Positions 32,599-53,443 of a stretch of 64,000 bases of DNA are shown piece by piece (position 1 is the first letter of the stretch; every line of letters begins with the position of its first letter). Position numbers and translations under genes: made by a program. This stretch comes from Jannaschia rubra. Lineage in GTDB: Bacteria > Pseudomonadota > Alphaproteobacteria > Rhodobacterales > Rhodobacteraceae. Below the pieces are notes generated by a model. The model was not told where the DNA came from and did not search any database. It saw only the letters and a list, made by a program, of their open reading frames with translations. The stretch lies in NCBI RefSeq assembly GCF_001403735.1, contig NZ_CXPG01000021.1:372001-436000 (forward strand), in the 5' to 3' direction.

Positions 32599-32629
32599 TG
32601 AGGGAGGTCTCTGGAGGTGCCGGCGCAAA

Positions 32630-33979
32630 TTAGGCAGTCGCGCTCCGCGAACAAGGGAAATTCGCTGCACCGGCGATGAATGCGCGCCGCACCGCCGCAT
32701 ATCGGTCTTCACAGCCGCCCCGCCGGGCGGTTCTGTCGTCCAGAAAGGCGCCGGCTTGAGTCAGAAGGCCAGCCCGGATGCCCGAATCGATGGTGATCCG
32801 TTCGAACACGTCGCGCTGTGCATGGCTTCCGCCAATGTCCTGCATGTGGGGCCGAGCGGCGGACAGCGCTGCGAAAGCCGCTGCGTGATCGCCCGCGGCG
32901 AAGGCGGCCAGTCCCCGCGCGGCGGCCGGCCCCGGCCCGTGGCGACCCTCCGGCGGCCGTGCCGTATCGGCCAGACGCGAGACGATGCGCCCCGCCGCCG
33001 CATCCCGCCCGTCCCCGGTCAGCGCGAGAAGATAGTGCAAGTCGGCGAACACGAGACACCCGTCGGCCGTCCGCGCGTCGGCCAGATCGGCCAGTTCGGA
33101 CCAGCGATGCCCTACGTCGATGCCCTCCAGCTCAAGTCGCAGCAATAGCGACGTGGCGTTCGCGATGTCGCGGTAATCGTCCGTCCGCTCCGCCCGGACA
33201 TGCTCGTCGTAGCAAGCCAGCGCCGCATCCATCCGCCCCAGGTCCAGAAGCATCAGCGCGCGGTGCCACCAGACATGGAAGCGGAAGTTGTTACAGTGGC
33301 CCCAGGCCGCCTGCCGCCGGTCGATCCAGTCGAGCCCACCCGCCGCATCGGCCGTCATATCGTGGACATGCGCGACGGCGTGCAGGCCCCAGGCGTCATC
33401 AGGCGCAAGATCGAGGGCCGCGTGTCCGGCGGCGGTCGCGGCGGCATAGTCGCCCGTCTCCTCCAGCGCGAAGGCGTGGCAACCGAGCAGATACCCGTGC
33501 CCCGCATGTTCAGAACCGTAGCACGGCAGCACTCGTTCAATAGACCGGCGCATCCCGGCGGCGTCCCCCGTTACGAACCGCAGCGCATGGCCCAGCTTCA
33601 TGGCGAGCGTATCGGTCGGCGCGCGTCTCAAGGTCGTCTCGAGCGCCGTCATGGCGGCTTTCGGTGATCCGTCGAGCAGATGCCGCAGCGCCAGCATGAG
33701 ATCCCGTTCCCGCAGGTTCGCGTCGGCCTCATATTCCTTGGCCCGCGCGAGGGCGGCGCGCGCATCGGCCAAAAGTTCCCGCCGGCCGAGGAGCACCAAA
33801 AACAGCCCCTTCAGCGCATGTGCACCCCCGTAATCGGGCGCAAGGTCCAGCAGCCTGGCAAGGTGGTCGGGGGTCGAGGCGCCGTGCGCCAGAAACGCGC
33901 CGGCCATCGCGTTCCATTCCGCCACCGCGACCGCGCTGTCCAGCGACACCGGCTGATCGAAGTGGTCGTGGCGTGACAT
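32630..33979 (-). CDS. TTC38-like tetratricopeptide repeat protein
   Basis: This 449-residue soluble protein is built of helical TPR-like repeats with segments typical of the TTC38 family (HALKGLFLVLLGRRE, GHGYLLGCHAFALEETGDYAAA, WGLHAVAHVHDM, FHVWWHRALMLLDLG). The biochemical role of TTC38 proteins is unknown. A GAGGA site supports the start. It lies just upstream of opgC in the same direction, but a functional link is unproven. Confidence 0.82.
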   Translation of the reverse strand: MSRHDHFDQPVSLDSAVAVAEWNAMAGAFLAHGASTPDHLARLLDLAPDYGGAHALKGLFLVLLGRRELLADARAALARAKEYEADANLRERDLMLALRHLLDGSPKAAMTALETTLRRAPTDTLAMKLGHALRFVTGDAAGMRRSIERVLPCYGSEHAGHGYLLGCHAFALEETGDYAAATAAGHAALDLAPDDAWGLHAVAHVHDMTADAAGGLDWIDRRQAAWGHCNNFRFHVWWHRALMLLDLGRMDAALACYDEHVRAERTDDYRDIANATSLLLRLELEGIDVGHRWSELADLADARTADGCLVFADLHYLLALTGDGRDAAAGRIVSRLADTARPPEGRHGPGPAAARGLAAFAAGDHAAAFAALSAARPHMQDIGGSHAQRDVFERITIDSGIRAGLLTQAGAFLDDRTARRGGCEDRYAAVRRAFIAGAANFPCSRSATA

Positions 33980-34124
33980 GGCGATCCTCGCAAGGGCGTC
34001 GTCACATCCTTTAAGGCGAAGCCGTGCAGTTCCCTATAGTGCGGGCCGCCACATGACGGACACGTGACGGTCCGTCATCGCCCGTAGCGGCCCGTCCAGC
34101 GTCCACTTCGCCGCGTCCCGCCGA

Positions 34125-35327
34125 TCAGTCGTCCGCGAAAGGATCCGGCCGGTCGAGCCGGTCCGTATCCGCCCCGAACCGCGGAGGAGCATGCCGATAG
34201 GTCACGGGCGTCGCCGAAAGCTTGAGCGGATTGCCGATCAGCGGCATGTGCAGGCCGTCCCGCTCCATGTCGACGAGCATCTCGCGCGCCTCGACCTGGT
34301 CGGACGCGAATACCTGCGGAAGGGTCTGCACGGGGCCGACGGGCACCGATGCGCCCTCCAGCCCCGCGATCACGCTTTCCGTCGTGCGCGCACGAATGAC
34401 CGGGATGAGGTGCTCCGCAAGCGTCTCGCGGTTCGCCATTCGCGCCGGATTGATGGCGAACCGCGCATCCGTCGGCAGATCGTCCAACCCCAGCACGGCG
34501 CAGAACCGGCCGAACTGCCGGTCGTTGCCCACCGCCACGATGACGTGGCCGTCCGACGTCTCATAGACCCCGTAGGGAACGATGTTCGGATGCCCGTTGC
34601 CCCGTCGCCGTGGCGCCTCGCCCGACAGGCGGGTGTTCACCCCCTCGTTGATGAGCCAGGCGACCTGACTGTCGACCAGCGCCACGTCGACCTGCTGCCC
34701 TTCGCCCGTGGCCTCCGCATGGCGCAGGGCGGCCAGGATGCCGACGGCCGCATACATCCCGCACATCACGTCGGCGATGCCCACGCCGACCTTCATCGGC
34801 TGACCCTCCGGCTCGCCGGTCAGGGACATGATGCCGCCGTATCCCTGCGCCATCAGGTCGTACCCGGGCTTGGCCGCGTTGGGCCCGGTCTGCCCGTAGC
34901 CCGAGACGGAGCCATAGACGAGCCGCGGGTTCACAGCCCTGATCGACGCATAGTCCAGCCCGTATTTCGCCAGCCCGCCGGGTTTGAAGTTTTCGAGCAG
35001 GACGTCCGCCATTCCGGCCAGCCGCCGGATCTGCGCCTGCCCCTCGGACGTGGCGATATCGATGGCGACGGAAAGCTTGTTTCGGTTGGCGCACATGAAA
35101 TATGCCGACAGGTCCGTGTCTTCCGCGCCGTCCTTCACATACGGCGGGCCCCATTGCCGCGTGTCGTCGCCGCCTGTGAGCGGGTTCTCGATCTTCAGGA
35201 CGGTGGCCCCCAGGTCGCCAAGAAGCTGCGAGCAGGTAGGCCCGGCCAAGATGCGCGAGAGGTCAAGAACGCGTACGCCGGCCAAAGGCCCGGCGGATTT
35301 CGATGTCGGGTTGGAAGCGTCCGCCAT
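34125..35327 (-). CDS. CaiB/BaiF-family (class III) CoA transferase
   Basis: This 400-residue cytoplasmic enzyme has the class III CoA-transferase N terminus (GVRVLDLSRILAGPTCSQLLGDLGA) and the catalytic-aspartate segment GVGIADVMCGMYAA near residue 180. The family moves CoA between acids such as formate, oxalate, succinate or carnitine derivatives through an aspartyl-CoA thioester. No pathway genes adjoin it, so the substrate is unknown. It is full length. Confidence 0.92.
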   Translation of the reverse strand: MADASNPTSKSAGPLAGVRVLDLSRILAGPTCSQLLGDLGATVLKIENPLTGGDDTRQWGPPYVKDGAEDTDLSAYFMCANRNKLSVAIDIATSEGQAQIRRLAGMADVLLENFKPGGLAKYGLDYASIRAVNPRLVYGSVSGYGQTGPNAAKPGYDLMAQGYGGIMSLTGEPEGQPMKVGVGIADVMCGMYAAVGILAALRHAEATGEGQQVDVALVDSQVAWLINEGVNTRLSGEAPRRRGNGHPNIVPYGVYETSDGHVIVAVGNDRQFGRFCAVLGLDDLPTDARFAINPARMANRETLAEHLIPVIRARTTESVIAGLEGASVPVGPVQTLPQVFASDQVEAREMLVDMERDGLHMPLIGNPLKLSATPVTYRHAPPRFGADTDRLDRPDPFADD

Positions 35328-35434
35328 GGTCTATCCAGTCTGTTCCGCAAGTCGTCAGGGATGGGACGGCTACCCTGCGGCGGCGTCCAAGGCGGACATA
35401 TCAGCCCCGCACCGCCCGTCAAAGGCATCGCGCA

Positions 35435-35908
35435 TCATTGCGTCGCGGCGTCGGCAACCTTGGCGAAGGCGTCGTCGAGTTCGGCGCCAATGGGTTCCAG
35501 GTCCGGCGCATCAGCCACGTAGGACGCAAGAACCTCGGAAGGCAGCCTGTAGCTGAGCGTCGCGGTGCCGTCCGCGTTCTCCGTCACATAGACACGCATC
35601 GGCGCCTCGATCATCGCCGGCGTGCTCAGCCGCAGGATCCGCACGGCATAGTCGTTGTTGAACAATCCGATCACGCGGTTGCCCGGTATGTCGATGCCCC
35701 GCGCGACGGCAGCTTCCGTCGGCCCCGCCATCGTCACGACGGCAAGGCCGCCCGCCCCCGCCGCCTGCCGCGCATCCTCGATCAGGTCGTCGAACGGCTT
35801 GGCGGTCGGCGTCACCGACCAGCCATCGCGCGACGCCATGTCGGCCACCTCCTGCGCGCCGAGCGGCGTGGAGAGAAGAACCAGCAGGGTCGTTGCACGG
35901 ATAAGCAT
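35435..35908 (-). CDS. Exported DUF302-domain protein
   Basis: This 157-residue protein has a signal peptide (MLIRATTLLVLLSTPLGAQ) and a DUF302 domain over the rest (TAKPFDDLIEDARQAA, NRVIGLFNNDYAVRIL, LSYRLPSEVLASY). The function of DUF302 is not established. The ATG at 35908 has a GGGAGG site 8 bases upstream; a longer upstream frame is rejected because it would remove the signal peptide from the N terminus. Confidence 0.85.
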   Translation of the reverse strand: MLIRATTLLVLLSTPLGAQEVADMASRDGWSVTPTAKPFDDLIEDARQAAGAGGLAVVTMAGPTEAAVARGIDIPGNRVIGLFNNDYAVRILRLSTPAMIEAPMRVYVTENADGTATLSYRLPSEVLASYVADAPDLEPIGAELDDAFAKVADAATQ

Positions 35909-36036
35909 GACGGCGCCTCCCGACTGTCTCGCGACAGAGACCACGTGTGCCGCGCAGATTGCAAGCGCCTGTCGTTGAAAATGCCGTCGGTTCCGCTCTT
36001 GCACCCCACTGCCCGCGTGTCATAAACGACGCCCAC

Positions 36037-36126
36037 GGACAGGTGGCCGAGTGGTCGAAGGCGCACGCCTGGAAAGTGTGTAGGCGGGAGACCGTCTCCA
36101 GGGTTCGAATCCCTGTCTGTCCGCCA
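36037..36126 (+). tRNA. tRNA-Ser (GGA)
   Basis: A 90-nt class II tRNA with acceptor stem GGACAGG pairing with TCTGTCC, anticodon stem-loop CGCCTGGAAAGTGTG (anticodon GGA), a long variable arm, T-arm GGGTTCGAATCCC and an encoded CCA. The gene is intact. Foreign-looking DNA begins within ~400 bases downstream, so its 3' end is a likely attachment site for a genomic island. Confidence 0.96.
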
Positions 36127-36152
36127 CTTGCCCCCGCGAAAGCGTTCTCCCG

Positions 36153-36174
36153 ATCCGGCTGCGGCCGGATTTTT
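36153..36174 (+). terminator. Intrinsic terminator of tRNA-Ser
   Basis: A 7-bp GC-rich stem (ATCCGGC/GCCGGAT, loop TGCG) is followed at once by a run of five T residues. It lies 26 bases after the tRNA and would end its transcript. Confidence 0.8.
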
Positions 36175-36540
36175 CCGTTGTATTCGAGGGTTATGCGGGT
36201 GGGGCTGAGCACTGCCCCTGCTGCCAGGAGGCCCGGAAGCGGTCTCTCCGGGCCGATATTCTCCGGACCTCATGACTGCGCCCGTTTGGTGAATTTCTTA
36301 TAAGCCCTTGTAAGATAGCAAGAAAATCCAGCGTCCGAAATTGCTTGGATTGGAGTCGCGTTTGCGTCTGCCGCGACCGGGTTCGGAAGTTCTCTGTCGA
36401 CGGCGTCCATTGGATTCCAAGCTCGCCTGTGAGAGCGAACTGTCGGCGTGGAGACAACGTTAGCCCCTAGATTTCGGTGTTTACGGCAGCTGGAACCGTA
36501 GATATCGTGGACCAGACCTTTAGAGAGACAGATTCAAGAT
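36175..36540. other. Leader region of the defence-like operon
   Basis: About 365 bases without a gene. From about 36290 the DNA becomes more AT-rich than the chromosome to the left (for example ATTTCTTATAAG and TTGTAAGATAGCAAGAAAA), with TTTCTT and AAGAAA arms around 36293-36320. The promoter of the six-gene operon should be here, but I cannot place a -35/-10 pair with confidence, and no strong ribosome binding site stands before 36541. Confidence 0.5.
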
Positions 36541-37701
36541 ATGCCGGCATGGGGGGAAACGCACGACGTTGCAGTGGCCGAGGCTCTCAGAGAGGGGCGC
36601 CGGGCATCGTCGCCCATCTACCAAACCAACTTGGGTTCGGCCTATTGCGGCGACTCTCTGAAGGTGCTCGGTAGCAAGCCGTTTTCGGTACACAAGGGTA
36701 TGGTACAACTAGCGTTTACTTCGCCACCGTTCCCCCTGAATACGAAGAAGAGCTACGGAAACCTGCAGGGTGAAGACTACGTCCGGTGGTTCGCCAAGTT
36801 CGCCCCCCTCCTTCGTGACATGGTGACCGAGGACGGTTCCATCGTCATCGAAATCGGCAACGCGTGGATGCCAGGTCAACCGACCATGTCCACCCACGTG
36901 CTCGAGGCGTTCTTGCGGTTCCTCAAGAAGGGCGATCTGCACCTGTGTCAGGAGTTTATCTGGTATAACCCGGCGAGGCTGCCGTCGCCGATCGAGTGGG
37001 TCAACAAGGAGCGTTCAAGGGTCAAGGACGCATTCACCCGTATATGGTGGATGTCGCCGACCCCACGCCCGAAGGCGGACAACCGGAAGGTACTGCGGGA
37101 ATACAGTCCGAGCATGAAGCGCCTCATCGAGACCGGCAAGTACAACGCCGGCGTGCGCCCATCAGAGCATCATATCGGCGCCGAAAGCTTCAAAGCCAAC
37201 AACAATGGTGCAATTCCGCCCAATGTCGGTGGCGTGGACGCGCTACCCTCCATGGACGGTGTCATCACTCCGAAGGGTTTCGCAGAGTACCTTGAACAAA
37301 CCGCTAATCTACTCAAGGCAGCCAATACTCTGTCTAGCGACTGCTATCGCAAATTCTGCCTAGAACGGGGTGCTCCAATTCATCCAGCCCGAATGCCTTC
37401 CACACTCGTCGAGTTCTTTGTCAAGTTCCTGACTGACGAAGGCGATGTTGTGCTTGACCCGTTCGCGGGAAGCAACACGACGGGGGCAGTTGCGCAGGAC
37501 CTAGGCCGGCGATGGCTCTCCATTGAGGCAGACTGGAATTATGCCGCCCACTCCATCGGACGCTTCGACCCCACGGCACTCACATCGACCTGCGAAGGAC
37601 TTGAGGTCAACGAGATCGAGCAGAACGAGGAACTAGGCGACCGGAGTTATAATGCTAAAGCGCCGCCGACTGCATCGTCCTCTGAGATGCTTCTGAAATA
37701 G
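36541..37701 (+). CDS. Site-specific DNA methyltransferase, beta class, probably N4-cytosine
   Basis: This 386-residue enzyme carries motif IV as TSPPF (residues 60-64) before motif I as DPFAGSNTT (306-314), the circularly permuted beta-class order. TSPP(Y/F) at motif IV is typical of N4-methylcytosine enzymes, whereas DPPY is more usual for N6-adenine; the product is therefore probably m4C but not certain. The region between (about 110-290) would hold target recognition. Its TAG stop is followed directly by the ATG of the helicase gene, so the two are coupled. It is the first gene of a six-gene operon and would mark host DNA as self. The start codon is uncertain because no clear ribosome binding site is present. 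Confidence 0.85.
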   Translation: MPAWGETHDVAVAEALREGRRASSPIYQTNLGSAYCGDSLKVLGSKPFSVHKGMVQLAFTSPPFPLNTKKSYGNLQGEDYVRWFAKFAPLLRDMVTEDGSIVIEIGNAWMPGQPTMSTHVLEAFLRFLKKGDLHLCQEFIWYNPARLPSPIEWVNKERSRVKDAFTRIWWMSPTPRPKADNRKVLREYSPSMKRLIETGKYNAGVRPSEHHIGAESFKANNNGAIPPNVGGVDALPSMDGVITPKGFAEYLEQTANLLKAANTLSSDCYRKFCLERGAPIHPARMPSTLVEFFVKFLTDEGDVVLDPFAGSNTTGAVAQDLGRRWLSIEADWNYAAHSIGRFDPTALTSTCEGLEVNEIEQNEELGDRSYNAKAPPTASSSEMLLK

Positions 37702-39852
37702 ATGCTGAATATGTCGCAGCCAAGAGATGAAGAACGGGCGCGAGTGAGCAGCGATGGCGCAATGCGCGATGCGCGACCGTTTCTGGGGGATCTAACGGTG
37801 CTCGACCTTAAGACAGAGTACCGCTCCCTAAAGGAAAATCCTGTCAGAGATTTCTACAGGCCGTGTCTGCTGAACTCCATTATCTACAAGCGAGCGGTCG
37901 GGTACTTTCGATCAACAGTTTATAACGTGATAGGTGCGTCATCTATTGAATTCGCTCGCCGTGGAGGTCGGACTGAACTTATTTGCTCCCCTGAGATGTC
38001 TGAGGAAGATGTCGACAGTATTGCCCTTGGATATGCCAGAAAGAGCGAAGTTATAGCTCAAAGGCTGACACAACAAATCGACTTCTTAATGTCTTCCGAA
38101 GAAACAGCTTTCAATACGCGACTTCTAGCTACACTCGTTTCGCTCGGCGCTTTGGAGATCAAAGTCGCCGTTCGCGCCGACCGGAAGGGCCTATATCACG
38201 AGAAGATCGGCATTTTTCTGGATGGTATCGGCAATTCTGTCAGCTTCAAGGGTTCAGCCAATGAAACTTGGAGCGGATGGCATCGGCAGGGAAACTTCGA
38301 GTCTGTAGAAGTATTCTGCAGTTGGCGAGAGGGATTGGAAGCGGAGCGCGTCAGAAACCACACGGCACACTTCGATGCGCTGTGGTCCGAGGACGATCCG
38401 GATATCGAGGTATTTTCGTTTCCAGATGGAGTGGTGGCTCATCTCAAGAAGGCAGCATTTAAGGACTTGGACGCCGTGGATCCGAAAGACGCAACGTCCC
38501 ATGAAAAGCGGCGGACACCGCTACCTCACCAGGATGCAGCCGTGAGTGAATGGTTGTCTCGGGGCGGAAGGGGGATCTTTGAACATGCCACTGGTAGCGG
38601 CAAAACATTCACAGCGTTGATGGCAATTCGCCGCCAGGCAGAGTGCGGAAAGCCGACGTTGGTGGTTGTGCCGAGTAGACTGCTACTTGACCAATGGGCC
38701 TCCGAGATAAGGGACGAAATTCCGGAAGCGGCGTTGTTACTTGCCGGCGGCGGGAACAACGCATGGCGGGCGCCCCATCGTCTCAAGGGCATGACGGGCG
38801 CCGATACGGCGCATGGCGGCCGAATCGTTCTTACCACCATGCAAACCGCCTCCATGGACGCATTCCGCCATGCGGTTATCGACGGCGAACATCTCCTACT
38901 GGTCGCAGACGAAGTGCACCAGATCGGTAGTCCGCAGCACGCCCGCATCATGACGCTCAATGCCGGGTCGAGGCTTGGGCTAAGCGCAACGCCCATTCGC
39001 TACGGCGACCCTGAAGGCACCCGGCAGATATTTGAGTATTTCGGCGGTGTCATACCCCCGCCAATAACCTTAGCGGACGCAATCGAGGCTGGCCGTCTTG
39101 TTCCATACGAGTATCAGCCGCATGCGCTCAACTTAACCGCTGACGAAGCGGACGCTTGGCGAAACTATACCGATCGGATACGGCGCGAGATAGTGCAGCA
39201 GAAAGCAGACGAAGCGGGCGCACGCCCTCTTTCCGACAAGGCAAAGATGCTGCTTATACAAAGGTCCCGAATTGCCAAAAAGGCTGCGTCCAAGGTTCGG
39301 CTCGCATGCGATGTGCTCAAAGCGCATTTCGAGAAGGGGCAAAGCTGGCTCGTTTATTGCGAAGACGCTGACCAGCTCGCGCAAGTTCTCACTATATTGC
39401 GACAAGAGGGTATGGACCCTGTCGAATATCATTCGAAGATGGACGGGGATCGCGCCGCCACAATGTTATGGTTCCGCTCCTTCGGTGGCATCTTGGTGTC
39501 CATCCGCTGTCTCGATGAGGGCGTTGACATCCCGGACGTATCCCACGCCCTCATTCTCGCGTCATCGCAGAATCCGCGCCAGTTCATTCAACGCCGTGGC
39601 CGCGTCCTGCGGCGCGCACCTGACAAACAGGTCGCAGTCCTCCATGATGCCATAGTCGTACCGGTCAGCGCCGAAGACGAGCCCGATCAAATCAGCTTGC
39701 TGAAGTCGGAACTGGTGCGGGCGATTGAGTTTGCCGACCACGCGATCAACAAGGGCGCTGGTGCCGAACTCCGCGATATTGCGACCAGTATGGGTATTGA
39801 CCCCGAGGGCCTGCTCAACAGCGGGCTTGAGGAGGACGAGGAGGAAGCCTGA
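37702..39852 (+). CDS. PLD-family nuclease/DEAD-box helicase fusion
   Basis: This 716-residue protein joins an N-terminal phospholipase D-like module (HEK at 166-168 and GSANET at 184-189, one HxK(x)n-GSxN active-site half) to a superfamily 2 helicase. The helicase has Walker A ATGSGKT (296-302), DEVH (403-406), LSATP (about 424-428) and motif VI QRRGR (630-634). A single PLD half would need dimerisation to make an active nuclease site. The acidic C terminus (EEDEEEA) is unusual. It starts directly after the methyltransferase stop and overlaps the next gene by 1 base. It resembles the translocating nuclease part of restriction-like systems; the substrate is inferred to be foreign or unmarked DNA. 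Confidence 0.85.
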   Translation: MLNMSQPRDEERARVSSDGAMRDARPFLGDLTVLDLKTEYRSLKENPVRDFYRPCLLNSIIYKRAVGYFRSTVYNVIGASSIEFARRGGRTELICSPEMSEEDVDSIALGYARKSEVIAQRLTQQIDFLMSSEETAFNTRLLATLVSLGALEIKVAVRADRKGLYHEKIGIFLDGIGNSVSFKGSANETWSGWHRQGNFESVEVFCSWREGLEAERVRNHTAHFDALWSEDDPDIEVFSFPDGVVAHLKKAAFKDLDAVDPKDATSHEKRRTPLPHQDAAVSEWLSRGGRGIFEHATGSGKTFTALMAIRRQAECGKPTLVVVPSRLLLDQWASEIRDEIPEAALLLAGGGNNAWRAPHRLKGMTGADTAHGGRIVLTTMQTASMDAFRHAVIDGEHLLLVADEVHQIGSPQHARIMTLNAGSRLGLSATPIRYGDPEGTRQIFEYFGGVIPPPITLADAIEAGRLVPYEYQPHALNLTADEADAWRNYTDRIRREIVQQKADEAGARPLSDKAKMLLIQRSRIAKKAASKVRLACDVLKAHFEKGQSWLVYCEDADQLAQVLTILRQEGMDPVEYHSKMDGDRAATMLWFRSFGGILVSIRCLDEGVDIPDVSHALILASSQNPRQFIQRRGRVLRRAPDKQVAVLHDAIVVPVSAEDEPDQISLLKSELVRAIEFADHAINKGAGAELRDIATSMGIDPEGLLNSGLEEDEEEA

Positions 39853-40067
39853 TGTCGGATGATAATGAACTTGGCCTGGAAACGCTTCTTGCCGTGAAAG
39901 CTCAGCTGGGCCTCGATTTGGACGATGATTTTCTGGAAGCGTGCTTCGCGATCCAAAAGAAGTACCAATTTAATCATGATAGGACGCTGTCCACACAGGC
40001 AATGGACCGCCTCATCGAGGACCGTGTCGAAAAAACCGATGTAAAGCAAACCGAGGGCGGGGCCTGA
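39852..40067 (+). CDS. Small acidic protein of the defence-like operon
   Basis: This 71-residue acidic, helical protein has a conserved-looking core LLAVKAQLGLDLDDDFLEACFAIQ followed by a basic-acidic tail (quoted core in part: LDLDDDFLEACFAI). Its ATG shares a base with the helicase stop and its own stop lies 4 bases before the ATPase gene. From memory, not checked, small proteins of this type are recorded next to DndD-like ATPases in DNA-modification systems; they may be adaptors between helicase and ATPase. No catalytic residues are visible. Confidence 0.7.
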   Translation: MSDDNELGLETLLAVKAQLGLDLDDDFLEACFAIQKKYQFNHDRTLSTQAMDRLIEDRVEKTDVKQTEGGA

Positions 40068-40071
40068 CAGG

Positions 40072-42057
40072 ATGAAGCTTCATAGTCTCAGAGCCCGAAA
40101 TTTCATGCCCTACAAAGGCGAGATGGAACTGGCGTTTCCGCAGGACGAGCAGCGCAACGTCATGATTGTCTTCGGCGACAACATGCGCGGCAAGACAAGC
40201 ATCCTGAACGCAATGCGCTGGGCCTTCTATGGTGAAGCACTAGGCCGCCACTCGCGGCCAATCCCGCTGCAGGAGATCGTCAACAAGGACGCGGCCTTGG
40301 TGGACGATTGGAGGGTGGAAGTTCACGTCAAGTTCGACGCTAACGGCCATGCATATGATCTGCGCCGGGTTGCCGAGCGCAGAAACATGGTCGCCAAACC
40401 TTCCAGACCTGAAGACTTCATTCGGTCGATTCACCTAACTCGCGATGGCTCCGCGGTATCTGGGGACCAAGTTGAAGCCGAGATTGGATTGATTGCGCCA
40501 AAGCAAATATCGCGTTTCTTCTTATTTGATGGGGAATTACTACAAGAATATGAAACGCTGCTGATCGAAGATAGCCAGCAAGGCCAGCAAATAAAAGAAG
40601 CCATTGAGCAGGTGCTTGGCGTGCCAGCGCTTACAAATGGTCGTGTTGATATTCAGACAATCCTTAAGCAGGCGCAAAAGCGGCAGAACTCCGATCTTAA
40701 GCAGATTGCCGGACTCGAAAAACAAGCGGAACGGCACGCGGAGTTGACCGGAAAGATTGATGCAATCGACCGAGACCTTGAGGATTTGAATTTAAGACTG
40801 AAGAAAGTTCGTGAAGAACGCACCGCGCTCGACGACGAAGTTGAAGCGGCACAGTCTGTGATCAGCGCAAAAGCGACGTTGGACGCAAAAGTCGGAGAGC
40901 GAAAGGTTGTGATTGATGATTGCGACAGGAAGGAAGGGGAGCGGCTCGATCTAATTTCTGGGGCGTGGAAAGATCTGATCGATGGGCAGCTCCAGATTAG
41001 GCGCGACCAGCTCGAAAGGCGGCGTAGAGAGTTGGTTGACTCGATCAAGAAGCGAAGCGCCCTAGCGCAGAAAGTCTCCGATCTGAAGCAGTTGCTTGAC
41101 ACGCGAGAATGTCCGACCTGTGAGCAAGAATTGAGTGACGAACGGCGGTTTCAGATTGGTCAGGCATTGGGCAAGGCCGAGACTGACTTGCGATCCATTG
41201 ATGACAGCAGCTCCGCGCTACAGGACATATCGGGGCAGCTCGACGCGCTGTCGAAAATCCGAGGCATTAATGCCAAAGACCGGCTCAGGCAGGTAGAAAA
41301 AGATCTCCAGGGCTATAACGTGCGCCTGACGCAGATCGAAAATGACATAGAAAGGCTGCGCGACGAGATCGCTGGATACGATACGGCGGAGATTGCACGT
41401 AAGAGAGTATTGCTGAGCGAAAAAATTAAGGAAGAAGGTCGTTTGCAGGGCGACATTCAGGACCAGAACTCCGAGCGCAAGAAACTGGTAGACGAACTTG
41501 CAGTTTCGCAGAAGGCAATCGAGGGCCTGACCAAGGATCGCACGCAGCGCAGTACGCGCAAGGTATCGCTCTGCTCCGATCTTGAAAGGGTGTTTTCTGA
41601 GAGCATTGAGCAGCTAAGAAGCAAGTTACGCAAACGTGTCGAAGAACGTGCGAACGACGCTTTCAAACATATGACCACACAAAAAAGTTATCGCGGTCTT
41701 GCGATCAACGAGAATTATGGCCTGCAGATCGTCGATCCGTCCGGTCGTCACGTAGCCGTGCGAAGCGCAGGCGCGGAACAGATCGTGGCGCTGTCCCTCA
41801 TCGACGGTCTGAACCGGACCGGGCGCGCCGCCGGACCAGTAATCATGGATACGCCGTTCGGCCGCCTCGACCTGAATCACCGCGACAACATTCTCAGCTA
41901 CTTGCCTTCGGTAACGAGCCAGTTCGTGCTGCTGGTTCATAGTGGCGAGATCAGGAAGGAAACAGATCTTGCCATCATCGCCGAAAGAATTGGCGCTGTA
42001 TACGAGATCAGGGAGATCAGCTCCACACAATCGCGGCTGGAAAGGACCACACTTTGA
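40072..42057 (+). CDS. DndD/Rad50-like SMC-type ATPase with zinc hook
   Basis: This 661-residue ATPase has an N-terminal Walker A GDNMRGKTS (35-43), two long coiled-coil arms (about 185-330 and 365-545), a Rad50-type zinc-hook CPTC (347-350) between them, and a C-terminal half with an ABC signature-like SAGAEQIVALS and Walker B VIMDTPFGRLD. The architecture is that of DndD of DNA phosphorothioation systems and of other SMC-like defence ATPases. No DndA or DndC sulfur-incorporating enzymes are nearby, so phosphorothioation itself is unlikely; the ATPase probably senses or tethers DNA in the context of the methyl mark. It overlaps the next gene by 4 bases. Confidence 0.88.
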   Translation: MKLHSLRARNFMPYKGEMELAFPQDEQRNVMIVFGDNMRGKTSILNAMRWAFYGEALGRHSRPIPLQEIVNKDAALVDDWRVEVHVKFDANGHAYDLRRVAERRNMVAKPSRPEDFIRSIHLTRDGSAVSGDQVEAEIGLIAPKQISRFFLFDGELLQEYETLLIEDSQQGQQIKEAIEQVLGVPALTNGRVDIQTILKQAQKRQNSDLKQIAGLEKQAERHAELTGKIDAIDRDLEDLNLRLKKVREERTALDDEVEAAQSVISAKATLDAKVGERKVVIDDCDRKEGERLDLISGAWKDLIDGQLQIRRDQLERRRRELVDSIKKRSALAQKVSDLKQLLDTRECPTCEQELSDERRFQIGQALGKAETDLRSIDDSSSALQDISGQLDALSKIRGINAKDRLRQVEKDLQGYNVRLTQIENDIERLRDEIAGYDTAEIARKRVLLSEKIKEEGRLQGDIQDQNSERKKLVDELAVSQKAIEGLTKDRTQRSTRKVSLCSDLERVFSESIEQLRSKLRKRVEERANDAFKHMTTQKSYRGLAINENYGLQIVDPSGRHVAVRSAGAEQIVALSLIDGLNRTGRAAGPVIMDTPFGRLDLNHRDNILSYLPSVTSQFVLLVHSGEIRKETDLAIIAERIGAVYEIREISSTQSRLERTTL

Positions 42058-42440
42058 GCATTGCGGAACCTACCACAATCGGCCTGTCGGAGGGCGCTCA
42101 CGAAAAGCTGAAGCGACTCCAGGAGGAACGGCAATTCCGAGATCTCCTCGATGGATATCGCTTTGCCATAGGACTTGCGCTTGCGCAGGGAGTTGAGCCG
42201 CCCGAAGTCCAGAAGCGAACAACGATCTTTAACGTAGGGACCGTTGATCCCGACCAATCCCTTAAGCGCTCAATCGAAGCGCTGATGGGAGATCGGGTTC
42301 AGGGTGCTTCGATATACAAAATGGCTGAGCGACTTGCGGAATGGGGCGTGAACGAACTTTCTGCCCAGGCGGAGGTCGGCAGTCTTGACTTTGTTAGCTT
42401 GCTCGACCTTGCAGGCGAAAAGGAGGCCGCCGATACATGA
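42054..42440 (+). CDS. Small DndE-like protein
   Basis: This 128-residue protein has an N-terminal ~60-residue part (IGLSEGAHEKLKRLQEE, DGYRFAIGLALAQGVEPP) whose pattern resembles DndE, the small DNA-binding partner of DndD: a ribbon-helix-helix-like start followed by a helix with large aromatic residues. The C-terminal half is helical and lacks known motifs. It overlaps both neighbours by 4 bases. The DndE relationship is a distant pattern match made by eye; a structure comparison would decide it. Confidence 0.55.
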   Translation: MSIAEPTTIGLSEGAHEKLKRLQEERQFRDLLDGYRFAIGLALAQGVEPPEVQKRTTIFNVGTVDPDQSLKRSIEALMGDRVQGASIYKMAERLAEWGVNELSAQAEVGSLDFVSLLDLAGEKEAADT

Positions 42441-44974
42441 CGGAGGCTCCCCTTCGTGCCTTCCTCATGGTGCGTTCGATTGACGGAACTTGGACAGTCA
42501 CGGTTTGCCGCGACCTCGGTACCGTCGTACGCACATGGAGAGCGCGGAAGGAGCCGAACTTGGACGTGGCCGTGCTGCACGTTGGCTTCGATCGCCCGCC
42601 ATCGCATAGCTTTAATGAAGTCGTAGATGCGTATCCTGGTCGCCTGCTTCTGACCACAGCGGCGAAGCATGTCGTGCCGACCACGTTCATTTCGTCCGCT
42701 GCCCCAGTAGGCACTGCAGAGAACACGGACGTGTTCATCGGGTTGCAAGGCTGGGGATACAAACTTGAAGACCCGACAGCGGGAACAGGCCATATTGAAC
42801 CGCCACACGCGGAAGCCGCGTCCCGTGAACCGCAGGGTTGGGTTGCTTCGTTTCTGAACCAGCATCCTACGGATGCACAAGAGTTGTCGGAGCACGGAAT
42901 ATTCGACGACAGTACTTATCTTGACCGAGAAGTGGAACTGGAACGAAACGTTCGTCACCGCACTGGGCGGTTTCGCCTACATCACATCGTTGGCGCGAAT
43001 TGCGATGACCCCTGCAAACTTGCCTGCGCCGCGCCGCCGTGGCTGGCAGCGCGGAATCTGATCTCCTTGAATTTGCCTGTGCGGGCCGCCAACGTCTTCC
43101 AGGTCAGCGGCATTGAGACGGTGCGCGATCTCGCCGAGTTTTCGATCGAGGCTCTTTTGAACCAAAAGAACTTCGGGCGAAAATCATTGGGAGATACGTT
43201 ACAAGCATTGCTCGTCGCTCTTAACGATGGTCCGCCTCGGATGGCGACAGCGGAATCTCTTCCTGAATCAAGCCATTTTCTGACAGAGGTGCGGAGGTCG
43301 CTGCTCACATTTTCCGTCCGCGAGCGCGACGTGCTGATACGCCGCCTTGGCTTCGAAACAACCCCGGAGACACTACAGGAAGTTGCGGACGACTACGGCT
43401 TAACGCGCGAGCGCATAAGGCAGATCGAGGCGAGCGCTACCAAGAGGTGGATCCGCGAGTCATCCTGGGATGACATACTCGAACAGAAGATCTCCCAACT
43501 CATGATCGGCCGAAGCTTTCCCCTCCCGGTTGCTGGCATAGAAGCCATAGACGCGTGGTTTGAAGGTGTATCGGTACACAGGGTGTTTTTTAGAAACTTG
43601 GTGCAGACCGTATGCAGTGACCGCATTCATACGCTTCACATCGATGGCCTTTACTACTTCAGCCTCATGGCGCAGGAGATTTGGGGGCGCACGGTTTCTG
43701 AGGCCTCCGGGCTGTTGTCCTCTGGAGCGGGAAGGGAATGGAGTGAAGACTACGCCCGCTCGCTGGTGCACGGCTTACTGCCAGACAACGCAAAAGAATT
43801 CGGGACGATACTGTGGGATAAATCGTCCCGGCTCTGCCACTTCAGCACCAGCCCGGACGGTTTGCGCGTTCTCACCAGTTATGGTCGCGGGGCGGATCAA
43901 GTGGTTGAAGCAATTCTAGCCGAGTCTGATACACCGCTGCACTACACGGAAATTGCCGAGCGCGCAAAAATGCGGGATGGAAGAAGCCTGGATGTTAGAA
44001 GGGCGCATAGCGCTGCCGCAAACATAGGTTTCTTGTTCGCGCGCGGGACTTACGGACTTGCACGGCATGTGCCGCTATCCGACGAACAGATCACTCATGT
44101 TCGCACTGAAGCCGAAGATATCGTTTGCTCCGAAGCACCTGGTAGACAATGGCACACTTCGGAGATCTTATCAGAGATATCGGAGCGTATGGATGGAGGT
44201 ATTGAGAGCCTGGACAAGTATCTGCTGGATATCGCACTCTTGAAATCGAGCATGCTTAGGCCTCTGGGAAAGATGACTTGGATCGCAGCCGGCGTTGACA
44301 CCGAAGATCAATCCCGTATCGACGTTCATCAGGCTGTCGTCGCGATCGTTCAGTCGGCAGGCTGCCCGCTGAACACCAGCGAGATAAAGGAACGCCTTAC
44401 CGCTGTGAGGGGCGTCAACGAGTTTTTCCAGATTTCCCTTGTAGATCCTCTTATTCGGGTGCAGCCCGGCTTGTGGGGCATAAACGACAGGGACGTGCCT
44501 TTTTCTCGTGAAGAACAACGCGAGCTTATCGAGCAGCTCGTACGCCTGCTTGAAGAGAAGCAATCAGGCATTCATGGAAGCGAACTGTCCGGTGTTCTTC
44601 CCCTACTAGACTGTCCGACCGATGCATTTCTATCAATTGCCTCACAGGACGATCGGTTAAAAATCGCGCAGGGTCGATATGTTTATCTCGCGCAATGGGG
44701 CAACCCAAGGCGCGAAACGATCGGTCACGCGGTTTCGGCCGTCCTTGAAGGAGCCGGCACCCCACTTACTCTTGAGAGAATTACTGGATTGGTCGAGAGC
44801 CGAATTGGCAGGAGGATCGACAAGCCAGTTATATCAGGTGCTTTGCAGGCTCTCGAAGCGATGTTCGATAGTGCAACAGGACAATGGAGCCTAACCATTT
44901 TGTCACCAGATGATGACGAAGACCTAGTGGAAACTAGCGATTACCATTCAGTCAATGCAAGGTCGGCTCTCTGA
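42437..44974 (+). CDS. Multi-domain DNA-binding protein with alpha-CTD-like, sigma region 4-like and winged-helix (HARE-type) modules
   Basis: This 845-residue protein is the last and largest gene of the operon. Residues ~1-200 are of unknown fold. About 207-262 resemble the RNA polymerase alpha C-terminal domain (LNLPVRAANVF, GIETVRDLAEFS, NFGRKSLGDTL). About 296-338 resemble sigma-70 region 4 (RERDVLIRRLGF, YGLTRERIRQIEASATKRW). The rest contains several winged-helix segments of HARE-HTH type (for example ADQVVEAILAESDTPLHYTEIA near 485-510, VAIVQSAGCPLNTSEIKERL near 635-655, and IGHAVSAVLEGAGTPLTLERI near 755-785, quoted in part). No catalytic motif is visible. It could bind DNA or RNA polymerase and thus shut off or reprogramme transcription, or read modified DNA. 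Coupled to the DndE-like gene by 4 bases. Confidence 0.75.
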   Translation: MTEAPLRAFLMVRSIDGTWTVTVCRDLGTVVRTWRARKEPNLDVAVLHVGFDRPPSHSFNEVVDAYPGRLLLTTAAKHVVPTTFISSAAPVGTAENTDVFIGLQGWGYKLEDPTAGTGHIEPPHAEAASREPQGWVASFLNQHPTDAQELSEHGIFDDSTYLDREVELERNVRHRTGRFRLHHIVGANCDDPCKLACAAPPWLAARNLISLNLPVRAANVFQVSGIETVRDLAEFSIEALLNQKNFGRKSLGDTLQALLVALNDGPPRMATAESLPESSHFLTEVRRSLLTFSVRERDVLIRRLGFETTPETLQEVADDYGLTRERIRQIEASATKRWIRESSWDDILEQKISQLMIGRSFPLPVAGIEAIDAWFEGVSVHRVFFRNLVQTVCSDRIHTLHIDGLYYFSLMAQEIWGRTVSEASGLLSSGAGREWSEDYARSLVHGLLPDNAKEFGTILWDKSSRLCHFSTSPDGLRVLTSYGRGADQVVEAILAESDTPLHYTEIAERAKMRDGRSLDVRRAHSAAANIGFLFARGTYGLARHVPLSDEQITHVRTEAEDIVCSEAPGRQWHTSEILSEISERMDGGIESLDKYLLDIALLKSSMLRPLGKMTWIAAGVDTEDQSRIDVHQAVVAIVQSAGCPLNTSEIKERLTAVRGVNEFFQISLVDPLIRVQPGLWGINDRDVPFSREEQRELIEQLVRLLEEKQSGIHGSELSGVLPLLDCPTDAFLSIASQDDRLKIAQGRYVYLAQWGNPRRETIGHAVSAVLEGAGTPLTLERITGLVESRIGRRIDKPVISGALQALEAMFDSATGQWSLTILSPDDDEDLVETSDYHSVNARSAL

Positions 44975-45062: not shown

Positions 45063-45482
45063 CTAACTTTTTTCAGGTCTCTCTTGCAGTGCGGTCTTTG
45101 TGACTTTGCCAGTTTTTTGCTCCCTCCACTCCACTGGAAATGGCTCCAGCACCCGCGCCAGCGTAACCTCCGGCCCCTGCTTCCCGTCCAGGATCGCCTT
45201 GACGATGTCCGGCGCAAGCAGCGTCATACGAAGGACGCGGGTCATGTAGGAGGGCGCGATCCCCTCGCGCTCGGCCAGTTCGGCGATGGTGGCGAACTCG
45301 CCCGACTCCAGCATACGCTTCCACCGAAACGCGCGCGCCAGCGCCTTGACCAGCGCGCTGTCTGTGCGCCGCGGCTGCGCGGCTCCTTCGGGCAGTCGCA
45401 TCTCCTTGCGGCCGCCACGTTTCACGATGCGGAACGGGACATGGAGCGTCATGGTTTCGGAAATCTGGGTGCCGCGGGTCAT
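45063..45482 (-). CDS. Recombinase-associated helix-turn-helix protein
   Basis: This 139-residue basic protein has a helix-turn-helix-like region (TIAELAEREGIAPSYMTRVLR, residues about 65-86, quoted in part as AEREGIAPSYMTRVL). It overlaps the serine recombinase gene by 4 bases and is the last gene of that operon. Similar small genes accompany serine recombinases in alphaproteobacterial prophages; it may be a recombination directionality factor or regulator, but I do not recognise a characterised family. The 88 bases between its stop and the defence operon hold no gene and may include an attachment site. Confidence 0.7.
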   Translation of the reverse strand: MTRGTQISETMTLHVPFRIVKRGGRKEMRLPEGAAQPRRTDSALVKALARAFRWKRMLESGEFATIAELAEREGIAPSYMTRVLRMTLLAPDIVKAILDGKQGPEVTLARVLEPFPVEWREQKTGKVTKTALQERPEKS

Positions 45483-46804
45483 GCGGCCGCCACCATGTCT
45501 TCCGCCAGCATTTCGCGCGCGAGACCGCCGAGGCCATCAACACGGAGTCTGACGTTGAACCCCTCGGTTCCGATATCGACGCGCTCGACCAGCAGCGCCA
45601 CGATGCGCGCCTGCTCGGCGGGGAACAGTTCGTCCCACAATTGGTCGAGCTGCTGCAGTGCGGTGCATGCGTCGGCTTCGGTGATGTTGGCGGCATGGGC
45701 GCGCGCGGCCTTGCAGGTCCCCGCGACGATCTCGGGCTGGCGGAACACGACGCGGAGTTGATCGATGACGGCGGCCTCGATCTCGCCTGCGGGCACGCGG
45801 CCGACCGGGCACGACCCACCGCCATGCTTCAGCACCGTCTGGCTGACATAGTAGCGGTAGAGCCTGTCGCCCTTGCGGGTATGCGTCGGCGAGAAGGCCG
45901 CGCCATCTGGGCCGAACAGTAGCCTCTTCAGCAGCGCGGGCGTGTCCGAGCGGGTGCGCGCGGCGCGCTCGCGCGGGCTCTCCTGCAGGATGGTGTGAAC
46001 CTTGTCCCACGTCTCGCGGTCGATGATGGCGTCGTGCTCGCCGGGGTAGCTGTCGCCCTTGTGCACCGCCTCGCCGATGTAGGCGCGGTTGCTCAGCATC
46101 CGGTAGATGTATTTCTTGTCGATCCGGTTGCCGCGCGGCGTCCGGATGCCGAGTTTCGTGATCTCTCTCGCCACCTCCGTGCCCGACCCGATCTCGAGGA
46201 AGTGGGCGAAGATCCAGCGGACGTGCGCGGCGGCTTCCTCGTCCACCAGCAGTTTGCGGTTTTCCACCCGGTAGCCGTAGGGCGGCACGCCCCCCATCCA
46301 CATGCCCTTCTTCCGACTGGCGGCGACCTTGTCGCGGATGCGCTCGGCCGTGACCTCGCGCTCGAACTGCGCGAACGACAGCAGGATGTTCAGCGTTAGT
46401 CGGCCCATGGAGGTGGTCGTGTTGAACGACTGGGTGACGGAGACGAAGGTCACCCCGTTCCGGTCGAACACCTCCACCAGCTTGGCGAAATCGGCGAGCG
46501 AGCGGCTGAGACGGTCGATCTTGTAGACCACCACCACGTCGACCAGCCCGTCCTCGATGTCCTCCAGCAGCCGCTTCAGGCCGGGTCGTTCCAGCGTGCC
46601 GCCCGAGATGCCGCCGTCGTCATACTGATCGCGGACCAGCACCCATCCCTCGGACCGCTGACTGGCGATGTAGGCTTCGCATGCCTCGCGCTGGGCGTGC
46701 AGGCTGTTGAATTCCTGTTCCAGCCCTTCCTCGGAGGATTTTCGGGTGTAGACCGCACAGCGCAGCTTGCGGACGACCTTCGATTTCTCGGGCGGCTTCG
46801 TCAT
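45479..46804 (-). CDS. Large serine recombinase (phage-type integrase)
   Basis: This 441-residue recombinase begins with a resolvase catalytic domain (CAVYTRKSSEEGLEQE with the nucleophile Ser near residue 21; DGGISGGTLERPGLKRLL; VVVYKIDRLSRS; SFAQFEREVTAERIRDK), followed by a recombinase domain (GGVPPYGYRV to about residue 290) and a zinc-ribbon/coiled-coil region. Such enzymes insert and excise phages and integrative elements at specific att sites. The ATG at 46804 overlaps the DUF2924 gene; the frame continues upstream but the family N terminus is near here. It defines a left end of the mobile element lying to the right. Confidence 0.92.
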   Translation of the reverse strand: MTKPPEKSKVVRKLRCAVYTRKSSEEGLEQEFNSLHAQREACEAYIASQRSEGWVLVRDQYDDGGISGGTLERPGLKRLLEDIEDGLVDVVVVYKIDRLSRSLADFAKLVEVFDRNGVTFVSVTQSFNTTTSMGRLTLNILLSFAQFEREVTAERIRDKVAASRKKGMWMGGVPPYGYRVENRKLLVDEEAAAHVRWIFAHFLEIGSGTEVAREITKLGIRTPRGNRIDKKYIYRMLSNRAYIGEAVHKGDSYPGEHDAIIDRETWDKVHTILQESPRERAARTRSDTPALLKRLLFGPDGAAFSPTHTRKGDRLYRYYVSQTVLKHGGGSCPVGRVPAGEIEAAVIDQLRVVFRQPEIVAGTCKAARAHAANITEADACTALQQLDQLWDELFPAEQARIVALLVERVDIGTEGFNVRLRVDGLGGLAREMLAEDMVAAA

Positions 46805-47256
46805 GTCCGCCCCCTGTGGTTCTTGAGCCCGAAGAATACCCAGCCGTTCCAGCGCGTGCCGATAATCGCGCGGGCGATGGCGGACAGCGACTTGTACGGC
46901 CGACCTTGCCACTCGAAGCCGTCGGTGGTGACGGTGACGACCTGCTCGACACCCTGCCATTCGCGCAGCAGCCGCGTGCCGGTGATCGGGCGGTCACGGT
47001 CGGCGCGCATGCCGCGCTTCTTCCTGTCGGCGCCGTCCAGTTCCTCGCCCAGCCGTTCGAGGTGCCGGATCGTCTCGGGCTTCAGCCCGCCGTAGACAAG
47101 TTCCTGGATGCGGTATGCCAGGCGGGACTCGAGGTAGCGGCGGTTGAACGGCAGCGGCTCGCTGTCGAACAAGTCGCGCCATTGCGCCTTCAGCTCCGGC
47201 GTCGTCGCGGTCTTCAGCGCGGCCAGGCGCGCGGGGATGGGATCGTGAGTCATCAT
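46801..47256 (-). CDS. DUF2924 family protein
   Basis: This 151-residue protein matches the DUF2924 family found beside serine recombinases in alphaproteobacterial prophages (ELKAQWRDLFDSEPLPFNRRYLESRLAYRIQEL and FEWQGRPYKSLSAIARAITG-like sequence, given here in part as LESRLAYRIQELVYGGL). It overlaps the recombinase gene by 4 bases. A GGAG site precedes the double ATG at 47256. The function is unknown, perhaps in recombination. Confidence 0.88.
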   Translation of the reverse strand: MMTHDPIPARLAALKTATTPELKAQWRDLFDSEPLPFNRRYLESRLAYRIQELVYGGLKPETIRHLERLGEELDGADRKKRGMRADRDRPITGTRLLREWQGVEQVVTVTTDGFEWQGRPYKSLSAIARAIIGTRWNGWVFFGLKNHRGRT

Positions 47257-47456
47257 GCAGTTCTCCGGTGAGTTGGAGTTGCATGACGGCATTGGTCGGG
47301 CGGATAGTGTAGGCAACGTTCTCCAGTCTCGTCAGATACTTCGCCCTTCTCCCGCATGCGCAGCCGAACCAGCCCGAGCGCCAGCAGGCCGCACAGCTCA
47401 GTGCGGCGCTCTGCGGGCGTCATCTGGTCGGGCGGGAGCGGATTGGGGCGTTTCAT
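47253..47456 (-). CDS. Small conserved protein of the recombinase operon
   Basis: This 67-residue protein has a central helix LCGLLALGLVRLRMR and no other motif. It overlaps the DUF2924 gene by 4 bases and is the first gene of the four-gene recombinase operon. Similar small ORFs open the same operon in related prophages, from memory. The function is unknown. Confidence 0.7.
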   Translation of the reverse strand: MKRPNPLPPDQMTPAERRTELCGLLALGLVRLRMREKGEVSDETGERCLHYPPDQCRHATPTHRRTA

Positions 47457-47579
47457 GCGGGCCTCGGAGCGGTCGTCTCCTCTGGCCTCTACTCACCGTG
47501 ATCGCGAACCGTCCCACGGCCGCTGGAAGTGCACGGACCGCGCCCATCCGGACTCGACTCAGGGTTGTTCGGAATGATA

Positions 47580-47594
47580 GAACATAGAGGGAAC
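47580..47594 (+). promoter_or_regulatory. Probable LexA (SOS) box, GAAC-N7-GAAC
   Basis: GAACATAGAGGGAAC fits the alphaproteobacterial LexA motif GTTC-N7-GTTC read from the other strand. It is in the divergent intergenic region, 28 bases before the TTG start at 47623. A partly symmetric GTTC...GAAC pair overlaps its left end (GTTCGGAATGATAGAAC). Both suit damage-inducible control of the element. Confidence 0.55.
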
Positions 47595-47622
47595 AATCAA
47601 GCTTGAAAGGAAAGGGATTCCG

Positions 47623-49768: not shown

Positions 49769-49876
49769 GTCCTCCGCACACAATCCACACACAACAAGCA
49801 CACGCCAAACACACCGAAAGCCTCGGTGGGTCCGGCAGTCTTGGAACAACAGCAATGACGTTCCGAGGCTCCCACC

Positions 49877-50470: not shown

Positions 50471-50492
50471 GTAGAGGCGAAAGGAGGAGATC

Positions 50493-50882
50493 ATGTTCAT
50501 GGGCACCACCGACTTCATCACGGTCCGCGCCCGCCGACCGCTCACCGAGATCGAGTTCTGCGCCTGGGTGGCGCAGGCCGTGCCGGGTGACCGGCTGGAG
50601 TACCATCGCGGCTTTCTGGTTCTCGACATCTTCCCGATGTTCGCCCGGCTCCCGGATCAGCAACGCGCGGAACTGGCCCGGCTCGGGTCGCGCGCCTTCT
50701 GGGCAGCCGAACAGGGTCTCGTGCACCTGGTGCAGGAGCGCACGGGCCCCGACCAGTTCGCCTACATCGCCGTCGCCCGCCCCAAGCCGAAGGCCGCAGC
50801 CGTCTCGCTGTCCGCGCTTCTGCTCGCCGAGCAGGGGCAGCCCGACCACGCCACCGGTTCGAGTGGTCGGGCTGCCGCGTGA
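50493..50882 (+). CDS. Conserved hypothetical phage/plasmid protein
   Basis: This 129-residue soluble protein has a core VRARRPLTEIEFCAWVAQAV and EYHRGFLVLD, seen from memory in the same place in related elements; no function is known. An AGGAGAT site precedes the ATG. Confidence 0.65.
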   Translation: MFMGTTDFITVRARRPLTEIEFCAWVAQAVPGDRLEYHRGFLVLDIFPMFARLPDQQRAELARLGSRAFWAAEQGLVHLVQERTGPDQFAYIAVARPKPKAAAVSLSALLLAEQGQPDHATGSSGRAAA

Positions 50883-53429: not shown

Positions 53430-53443
53430 GGGGGAGACCGGCC

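Follow-up and report, generated by a model that had tools for sequence, protein, structure and literature searches.

The 64,000-nucleotide stretch of the Jannaschia rubra genome analyzed here (contig NZ_CXPG01000021.1, positions 372,001 to 436,000; hereafter the window, numbered from its first letter) carries a six-gene operon at 36541-44974. We read this operon, with a probability of roughly two in three, as a prophage-borne, methylation-coupled PbeABCD defence system built on a CxC-type ATP-binding cassette (ABC) ATPase and equipped with a frequent extra subunit that we call SIG, our own label for the sixth gene. Directly observed in the sequence are the gene set, its recurrence, the intact motifs, the finding of no DndC or second DndD, and the location in a prophage. 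Four of the genes match a methylation-coupled form of the known CxC-ABC-ATPase/PbeABCD kind, to which SIG is added. It is this recurrent partner, which contains a domain like the C-terminal domain of the RNA polymerase alpha subunit (alpha-CTD) and sigma-70 region 4 (sigma-4), that is worth following up.

A six-gene operon that recurs in other genomes

The operon consists of six open reading frames (ORFs), encoding proteins of 71 to 845 amino acids (aa).

36541..37701, + strand: N4-cytosine-type DNA methyltransferase, M.PvuII-like, 386 aa (PF01555 N6_N4_Mtase, E 3.4e-31)
37702..39852, + strand: PbeA, phospholipase D (PLD)/HKD nuclease half-site and superfamily 2 (SF2) helicase, 716 aa (PADLOC PbeA, E 3.4e-218)
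39852..40067, + strand: PbeB-type small protein, 71 aa (Pfam Sp-DndD PF20306, E 6.7e-11)
40072..42057, + strand: PbeC, CxC-clade ABC ATPase with CPTC hook, 661 aa (PADLOC PbeC, E 0, 1024 bits)
42054..42440, + strand: protein at the PbeD position (possibly DndE-like), 128 aa, TTG start (position and size)
42437..44974, + strand: SIG, alpha-CTD / sigma region 4 / winged-helix repeat protein, 845 aa (Pfam, alignment, hhalign)

The genes follow one another tightly, with a 0-base gap, a 1-base overlap, a 4-base gap and two 4-base overlaps at successive junctions, and their GC content (0.553) is lower than that of the DNA on either side (0.677 at 26541-36036 and 0.664 at 45063-55000). An earlier note on this DNA had described six coupled same-strand genes of lower GC content adjoining a tRNA-Ser gene, and had listed the parts of a likely defence or modification operon, including an N4-methylcytosine-type methylase. 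The ORF, GC and ARAGORN results confirm this layout, and the family matches bear out the parts list, with M.PvuII as the closest solved relative of the methylase.

The operon is confirmed as genuine. The six genes are not together by chance, since other genomes hold the same set, with protein identities of 36-89%. The nearest relative of the window, locus L054 (genome G408), displays the complete order at 70-89% identity; the order is also found in L055 (G436; 39-56%), on a plasmid of Aurantiacibacter atlanticus (L031; 36-59%), where SIG is interrupted by an insertion sequence of the IS3 type, and in L062 (G376; L062:5511-13613), where the copies contain stops and frameshifts that reflect either decay or poor sequence. 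By the terms of the earlier note, its reading would be refuted if the genes never co-occurred elsewhere; the recurrence of the order contradicts that case. Two other loci, in a Rhodobacteraceae metagenome-assembled genome (L032) and in Salipiger bermudensis (L033), have five genes in order and the methylase downstream on the opposite strand. Their methylase is 70% identical to that of the window, the remaining five proteins 38-57%, which suggests that the methylase may have been exchanged separately from the rest of the cassette. Each of the six recurrences has a methylase with the cassette; of these loci, L032 and L033 were detected by a SIG query, L031 by SIG and PbeC, and L054, L055 and L062 by PbeC. 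When 84,980 genomes were scanned with two short patterns, eight loci were retrieved, two of them (L032 and L033) with full SIG relatives; viral contigs scanned with SIG and PbeC patterns, two short ones each, yielded no relative, which is a weak absence. Purifying selection is indicated by the ratio of nonsynonymous to synonymous substitution rates (dN/dS) between the window and L054, which is 0.03-0.11 over five genes, a rough value given saturated dS; the 71-aa gene was not measurable.

Relationship to known Pbe and CxC systems

The closest solved relative of the methylase is M.PvuII (1boo; E 1.4e-72), an N4-cytosine enzyme of the same methyltransferase family, and the motif order is permuted, with TSPPF at residue 60 ahead of DPFAG at 306. 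PbeA has the fusion of an HKD nuclease to an SF2 helicase that characterizes both PbeABCD and CxC-ABC/DndE systems: its helicase motifs GSGKT, DEVH and QRRGRVLR are present, and an HxKx5D half-site plus GSxN occurs in 12/12 aligned sequences (window counted), together with a PLDc_2 match (E 5.8e-5) under the Pfam cut-off. The canonical HKD spacing is HxKx4D, one residue shorter than that in PbeA. Between pbeA and pbeC lies the expected small PbeB protein, recognized via PF20306, and PbeC is an ABC ATPase with zinc-hook cysteines (CPTC at 347, SAGAEQ at 565, MDTP at 592). A cytosine methylase inside the operon is what would be expected of a methylation-coupled CxC system.

As for the 128-aa protein, it takes the PbeD place by position and size, and its identity as DndE is not proven. 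Scans of PADLOC, Pfam and NCBIfam returned no family match, and an hhalign profile comparison against other PbeD/DndE proteins was negative. The protein is 48-84% identical among cassette relatives, with weak matches (29-30%; E 3.7e-7 and 8e-6) to the divergent loci L056 and L057. The DndE-like label that it had been given stands on position, size and these weak matches, and finds no support in the profile comparison.

Two described kinds of system resemble the operon. The DndCDEA-PbeABCD system presented in passages of Xiong et al. 2019 (PMC6459918) contains homologues of PbeA, PbeB and PbeC in the same order, then a small fourth protein. The operon is unlike it in that a methylase leads, SIG is added, DndC was not found, and the 128-aa protein is not proven to be PbeD. 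According to the same passages, 320/553 PbeAC pairs have no dndCD within 10 kb and base-modifying genes lie near 155/320 of these solitary pairs; pairing with methylases is already proposed there and so is not new. The CxC ABC-ATPase/DndE systems described in the main text of Rakesh, Aravind and Krishnan 2024 (PMC10853773) share with the operon the HKD-SF2 helicase, the small protein, the CxC ATPase and a permuted N4-cytosine methylase, and methylation is proposed there to replace phosphorothioation (PT) in those systems with cytosine methylases. Like the operon, PbeA and PbeC of archaeal proviruses (PMC11705971) are encoded in an integrated virus; these proviruses differ in being archaeal and in having dnd genes, and the passage on them does not mention SIG. 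The earlier note took isolated components, but not the full order with the last protein, to be catalogued. No description of SIG was found in the literature searched, and most of the other genes belong to the kind described in passages of PMC6459918 and PMC10853773.

PT is probably not the mark in this genome. DndC had 0 matches in the whole genome, which scored 100% complete, and the PbeC and DndD profiles across the genome matched only the operon's own PbeC (the DndD profile under its cut-off). The PT genes of DndCDEA-PbeABCD were thus not found, in a genome-wide search that did not extend to the SspB, SspC and DndE profiles. A PT mark is improbable because DndC and a canonical DndD were not found.

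SIG combines promoter-recognition modules

Three regions were delineated in SIG.

43055..43207, + strand: alpha-CTD-like domain, residues 207-257 (PF03118 RNA_pol_A_CTD, E 1.1e-11)
43319..43444, + strand: sigma-70 region 4, residues 295-336 (PF04545 Sigma70_r4, E 3e-9)
43892..44905, + strand: internal repeat, interpreted as tandem winged helices, residues 486-823 (486-686 vs 630-823, hhalign probability 92, E 5.2e-7)

A HARE helix-turn-helix (HTH) match (E 0.0025) scored 18.6 bits vs a Pfam cut-off of 25.9. The description of the last protein as alpha-CTD/sigma-like in the earlier note is upheld by the first two domains; as no sigma region 2 match was found with Pfam, SIG lacks the combination of regions 2 and 4 that defines a sigma-70 factor and is not a full sigma factor.

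In an alignment of six SIG sequences (window, L031, L032, L033, L054 and L055), the equivalents of E. coli alpha R265, N268, N294, G296 and S299 are invariant in 6/6, as is the sigma RERIRQ motif (E. coli 584-589). These residues contact UP-element and -35 DNA in E. coli. Invariant columns number 81 of the 409 that are ungapped, and include these five UP-element and six -35 positions. SIG is the fastest evolving of the five measurable genes between the window and L054 (dN/dS 0.111 vs 0.033-0.072, with dS saturated), and in that comparison SIG is least conserved at 81-160, 201-240 and 601-640.

Two known defence proteins weakly match parts of SIG. PglW, of bacteriophage exclusion (BREX) type 2, gives a weak profile match to residues 205-347 (E 7.8e-5, PADLOC) that is confined to the alpha-CTD and sigma-4 part, and MzaA of the MZA system matches residues 278-350 (E 1.2e-12, NCBIfam), confined to the sigma-4 part. 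Family scans of the six operon proteins revealed no other BREX or MZA gene and nothing like a stand-alone PvuII-type endonuclease. No description of SIG in connection with Pbe or PT was found in the literature searched, which did not include the 2020 ABC-ATPase and HARE-HTH papers, nor in the passages of PMC12839542 and PMC11705971. In the main text of PMC10853773, supplementary data apart, the only "sigma" is a DndH variant, "HARE" is a nuclease fusion, and an MTaX1 gene is named instead of SIG.

SIG-like proteins as apparent frequent partners of Pbe systems

Loci with dnd genes also encode SIG relatives, of 732-1041 aa, directly before pbeA (L060, L065, L068, L069, L070 and L072). Those of L060, Ruegeria (L065) and Pontibrevibacter (L068) match a profile of the window SIG clade over columns 287-702 (E 2.3e-16), and those of Rhizobium (L069 and L070, detected by the SIG query) match in the alpha-CTD/sigma-4 part (E 3.9e-13); in L070, the SIG relative and pbeA are separated by an annotated 55-aa ORF. 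A SIG-like gene is present in 10/24 PbeC-found loci (window, L031, L054, L055, L059, L060, L062, L065, L068 and L072), the one in L059 being a C-terminal part truncated by the contig end. These 24 loci comprise 12 genome loci, window included, and 12 hand-picked out of 24 plasmid records; L057 cannot be judged, as its contig begins inside pbeC, and DndD may account for the match in L061, L063 and L064. Across 295 family genomes, Pbe was found in 9 (E<=1e-30) and SIG-like proteins in 6 (E<=1e-12), with both in 5, a co-occurrence with a hypergeometric p of 4e-8 when genomes are treated as independent. SIG-like proteins look like frequent partners of Pbe systems.

Genome G484 (L138:9639-11552) encodes a 637-aa SIG core (alpha-CTD and sigma-4) without the N-terminal region, preceded by ORFs of 231 aa and 217 aa, neither with a family match. 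Among the matches listed for a sample of 289 genomes from across the class, full-length SIG occurs only in the genome of the window itself; the next best match has E 5.4e-8, and the others are short and fall at sigma region 4.

The operon lies in a prophage

The operon is found between a putative left attachment site (attL) at a tRNA-Ser gene and the candidate serine integrase of a ~57-kb prophage, whose features in the window are the following.

36037..36126, + strand: tRNA-Ser (GGA), with 3' end TCCGCCA as the inferred left attachment core (ARAGORN)
36120..36290, + strand: conserved non-coding prophage left end of ~160 bases (attL block), present in 115/295 family genomes (E<=0.001, with no more than two sites counted in each genome)
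45063..45482, - strand: small HTH (weakly ParB-like) protein, integrase module (weak matches; kept beside the integrase in L032, L033 and L054)
45479..46960, - strand: large serine recombinase, candidate prophage integrase (Resolvase, Recombinase and zinc ribbon; phrog_95 integrase, E 8.4e-113)
46801..47316, - strand: DUF2924 protein, integrase module (PF11149, E 3.5e-50)

The serine recombinase is the nearby integrase that had been anticipated; a tyrosine integrase as mover was rejected, with no PF00589 match across C21:408-465 kb. The attL block lies behind a tRNA-Ser beside the cassette in the window (GGA), L033 (GGA), L032 (TGA) and L054 (GCT). Another copy, oriented alike, is located ~57 kb downstream, outside the window (G000:C21:465066-465229), after the remnant CTCCGCCA; between 34 and 50 kb in the window the tRNA 3' end is not directly repeated, the partner being 57 kb away. 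Between the two copies lie genes for the serine recombinase, a helicase, a primase/helicase, terminase, portal, minor tail, tape measure and tail proteins, so that attachment repeats, integrase, terminase, portal and tail genes, all hallmarks of a temperate phage, are predicted here together.

Of 19 further attL-block sites, the second copy in the same genome among them, 11 follow a tRNA-Ser and 8 have the same integrase. Type I restriction and modification genes were detected in 4/6 integrase-adjacent slots scanned (ten proteins from the six slots, E 1e-20, with L116 and L123 left out); the proteins scanned from slots L126 and L127 gave no match at that threshold. Since the slot holds type I genes in related sites, the operon looks like cargo in a defence slot. 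The end block, at tRNA-Ser genes of several anticodons and often in two places per genome, would mark a family of elements that is widespread and has room for cargo beside its serine integrase. The shared prophage end also points to a host within Rhodobacteraceae. Nothing on this slot or phage family was found in the literature searched.

This location also allows a reading, unlikely on balance, in which the operon serves the prophage and not the host: the methylase would shield phage DNA from host restriction, and Pbe would exclude rival phages or stabilize the lysogen. In its favour are the position of the operon, flanked by attL on one side and by the integrase on the other in an element that has terminase, portal and tail genes, and the type I restriction-modification genes that related elements hold in this slot. 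The six genes are also on plasmid L031, and therefore the operon is not tied to this phage; moreover, superinfection exclusion is itself a defence, so this explanation overlaps in part with the defence reading that we prefer.

Two side observations concern the same prophage. Near its right end, outside the window, there is a second defence-like cassette (G000:C21:458511-463328; L132:4512-9329) with PDC-S14 and a PLD-helicase; the helicase is divided between two ORFs, and the first of these has a DUF1156-methylase-like part. The prophage region also encodes, at window positions 60597-61982, a further DNA methylase of the N6_N4 type.

Proposed mechanism and alternatives

We propose a mechanism in five steps, the first four modeled on published relatives. 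The M.PvuII-like enzyme would place N4-methylcytosine on host and prophage DNA (step 1); PbeC and the small 128-aa protein would form a complex like those of structural maintenance of chromosomes (SMC) proteins that scans DNA (step 2); PbeA, with its helicase and HKD active site, would halt or cut unmarked DNA (step 3); and the 71-aa PbeB-type protein may act as a regulator (step 4). In step 5, SIG would bind DNA via its alpha-CTD and sigma-4 modules, adjacent on an UP element and a -35 box, with its winged helices as a platform, such that the complex could be loaded at, or triggered from, promoter-like DNA. Taken by itself, this last step, drawn solely from the conserved residues, is tentative and falls short of even odds. 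More doubtful still is the conjecture that SIG reads the UP/-35 half of promoters without RNA polymerase: incoming DNA would receive the Pbe complex at its promoters (or have polymerase blocked there), with the mark deciding on attack. If true, promoter architecture would direct this restriction-like system to its target, and methylation- and phosphorothioate-type Pbe systems would have the arrangement in common.

The alternative that SIG is a transcription factor, controlling the pbe operon or prophage genes via the -35/UP half from outside the attacking complex, seems to us somewhat unlikely. Its domains are transcription modules with promoter-reading residues retained, and its gene here runs in the direction of the operon and overlaps it, while in dnd-bearing loci it lies directly before pbeA, all of which would suit a regulator. 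However, a protein of 732-1041 aa, with an internal winged-helix repeat in the window, is large for a local regulator, region 2 is missing from its matches, and a simple scan of 36000-36700 revealed no sigma-70-type promoter, a weak test given that host promoters may differ.

Distinctly unlikely is a role as a modification reader, in which the HARE-like winged helices would distinguish DNA with the mark from DNA without it and permit PbeA to act. It agrees with the weak HARE match and the internal repeats, and with statements in PMC10853773 that HARE-HTH recognizes DNA with modified bases and that methylase-bearing CxC systems have a discriminator gene, MTaX1. Against it, the HARE match is under the Pfam cut-off, and a related architecture occurs in both PT and methylation loci. 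The presence of SIG-like proteins in both sulfur- and methyl-marking loci makes a reader of one mark less likely, and for a role common to both marks we modestly prefer promoter-type DNA recognition over expression control. Finally, that the operon is a solitary, inactive PbeABCD remnant without a PT partner is highly improbable: PbeABCD as tested in passages of Xiong et al. depends on PT (PMC6459918) and DndC was not found here, but the motifs are intact, the rough dN/dS of 0.03-0.11 points to selection, and the methylase is present in all six recurrences.

Several observations weigh against the interpretation of the operon as a methylation-coupled Pbe system with SIG as its subunit. PbeABCD halted virus replication without cleavage of viral DNA, as reported in passages of Xiong et al. 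(PMC6459918). An SspD profile gives a weak match (E 2.6e-9) at C27:35180-35806, to a 348-aa PAPS-reductase-domain protein (G000:C27:34817-35863; L139:3818-4864) near a RES-domain gene on a different contig; this search also matches in 7/14 control genomes, and eight ORFs scanned around the gene contain no Dnd or Ssp gene by Pfam. For SIG itself, the alpha K298 equivalent is retained in 2/6 sequences, RERIRQ could owe its conservation to folding as much as to -35 reading, and AlphaFold models from three-sequence alignments are poor, for SIG (predicted local distance difference test, pLDDT, 44) and for the 128-aa protein (pLDDT 53). The Rhizobium and Arthrobacter (L072) proteins share with the window SIG the alpha-CTD/sigma-4 part only. 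Outside sigma-4, matches of dnd-type SIGs are modest (E 1.4e-5 for L060, 2.9e-4 for L065, 0.0041 for L068), and the window SIG against the dnd-type profile reaches E 0.065. SIG is not universally needed, since many Pbe loci have no SIG-like gene, and the G484 locus has no Pbe gene within its 15.9 kb.

A frequent partner with promoter modules offers a testable handle on how Pbe systems find their target or are switched on. A methylation-coupled, phage-borne cassette is also a compact set in which to ask whether a methylated base can do the work of the sulfur mark.

Related modules and methylases in other loci

On a plasmid of Lactiplantibacillus plantarum A8, a 1141-aa hypothetical protein occupies the SIG position before pbeA (L074:3053-6478); it had no match to three SIG profiles. 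A TFIIB-family gene (TFB) on a Natrinema plasmid (L073:11396-12319), two genes after the PbeD position, was considered as an archaeal SIG counterpart and dropped because no TFB is annotated near pbe in four other archaeal loci. Large methylases lie beside two PbeC-type loci, as a PglX-like pair in one (L056:14287-18094) and a single 1302-aa protein in the other (L063:10625-14533). A plasmid of Roseomonas sp. OT10 (L071:5089-12119) encodes a 374-aa sigma-70-like protein, a large helicase, a hypothetical protein and a cytosine methyltransferase, adjoining vsr and an HNH endonuclease, and looks like another defence cluster with a sigma-type module.

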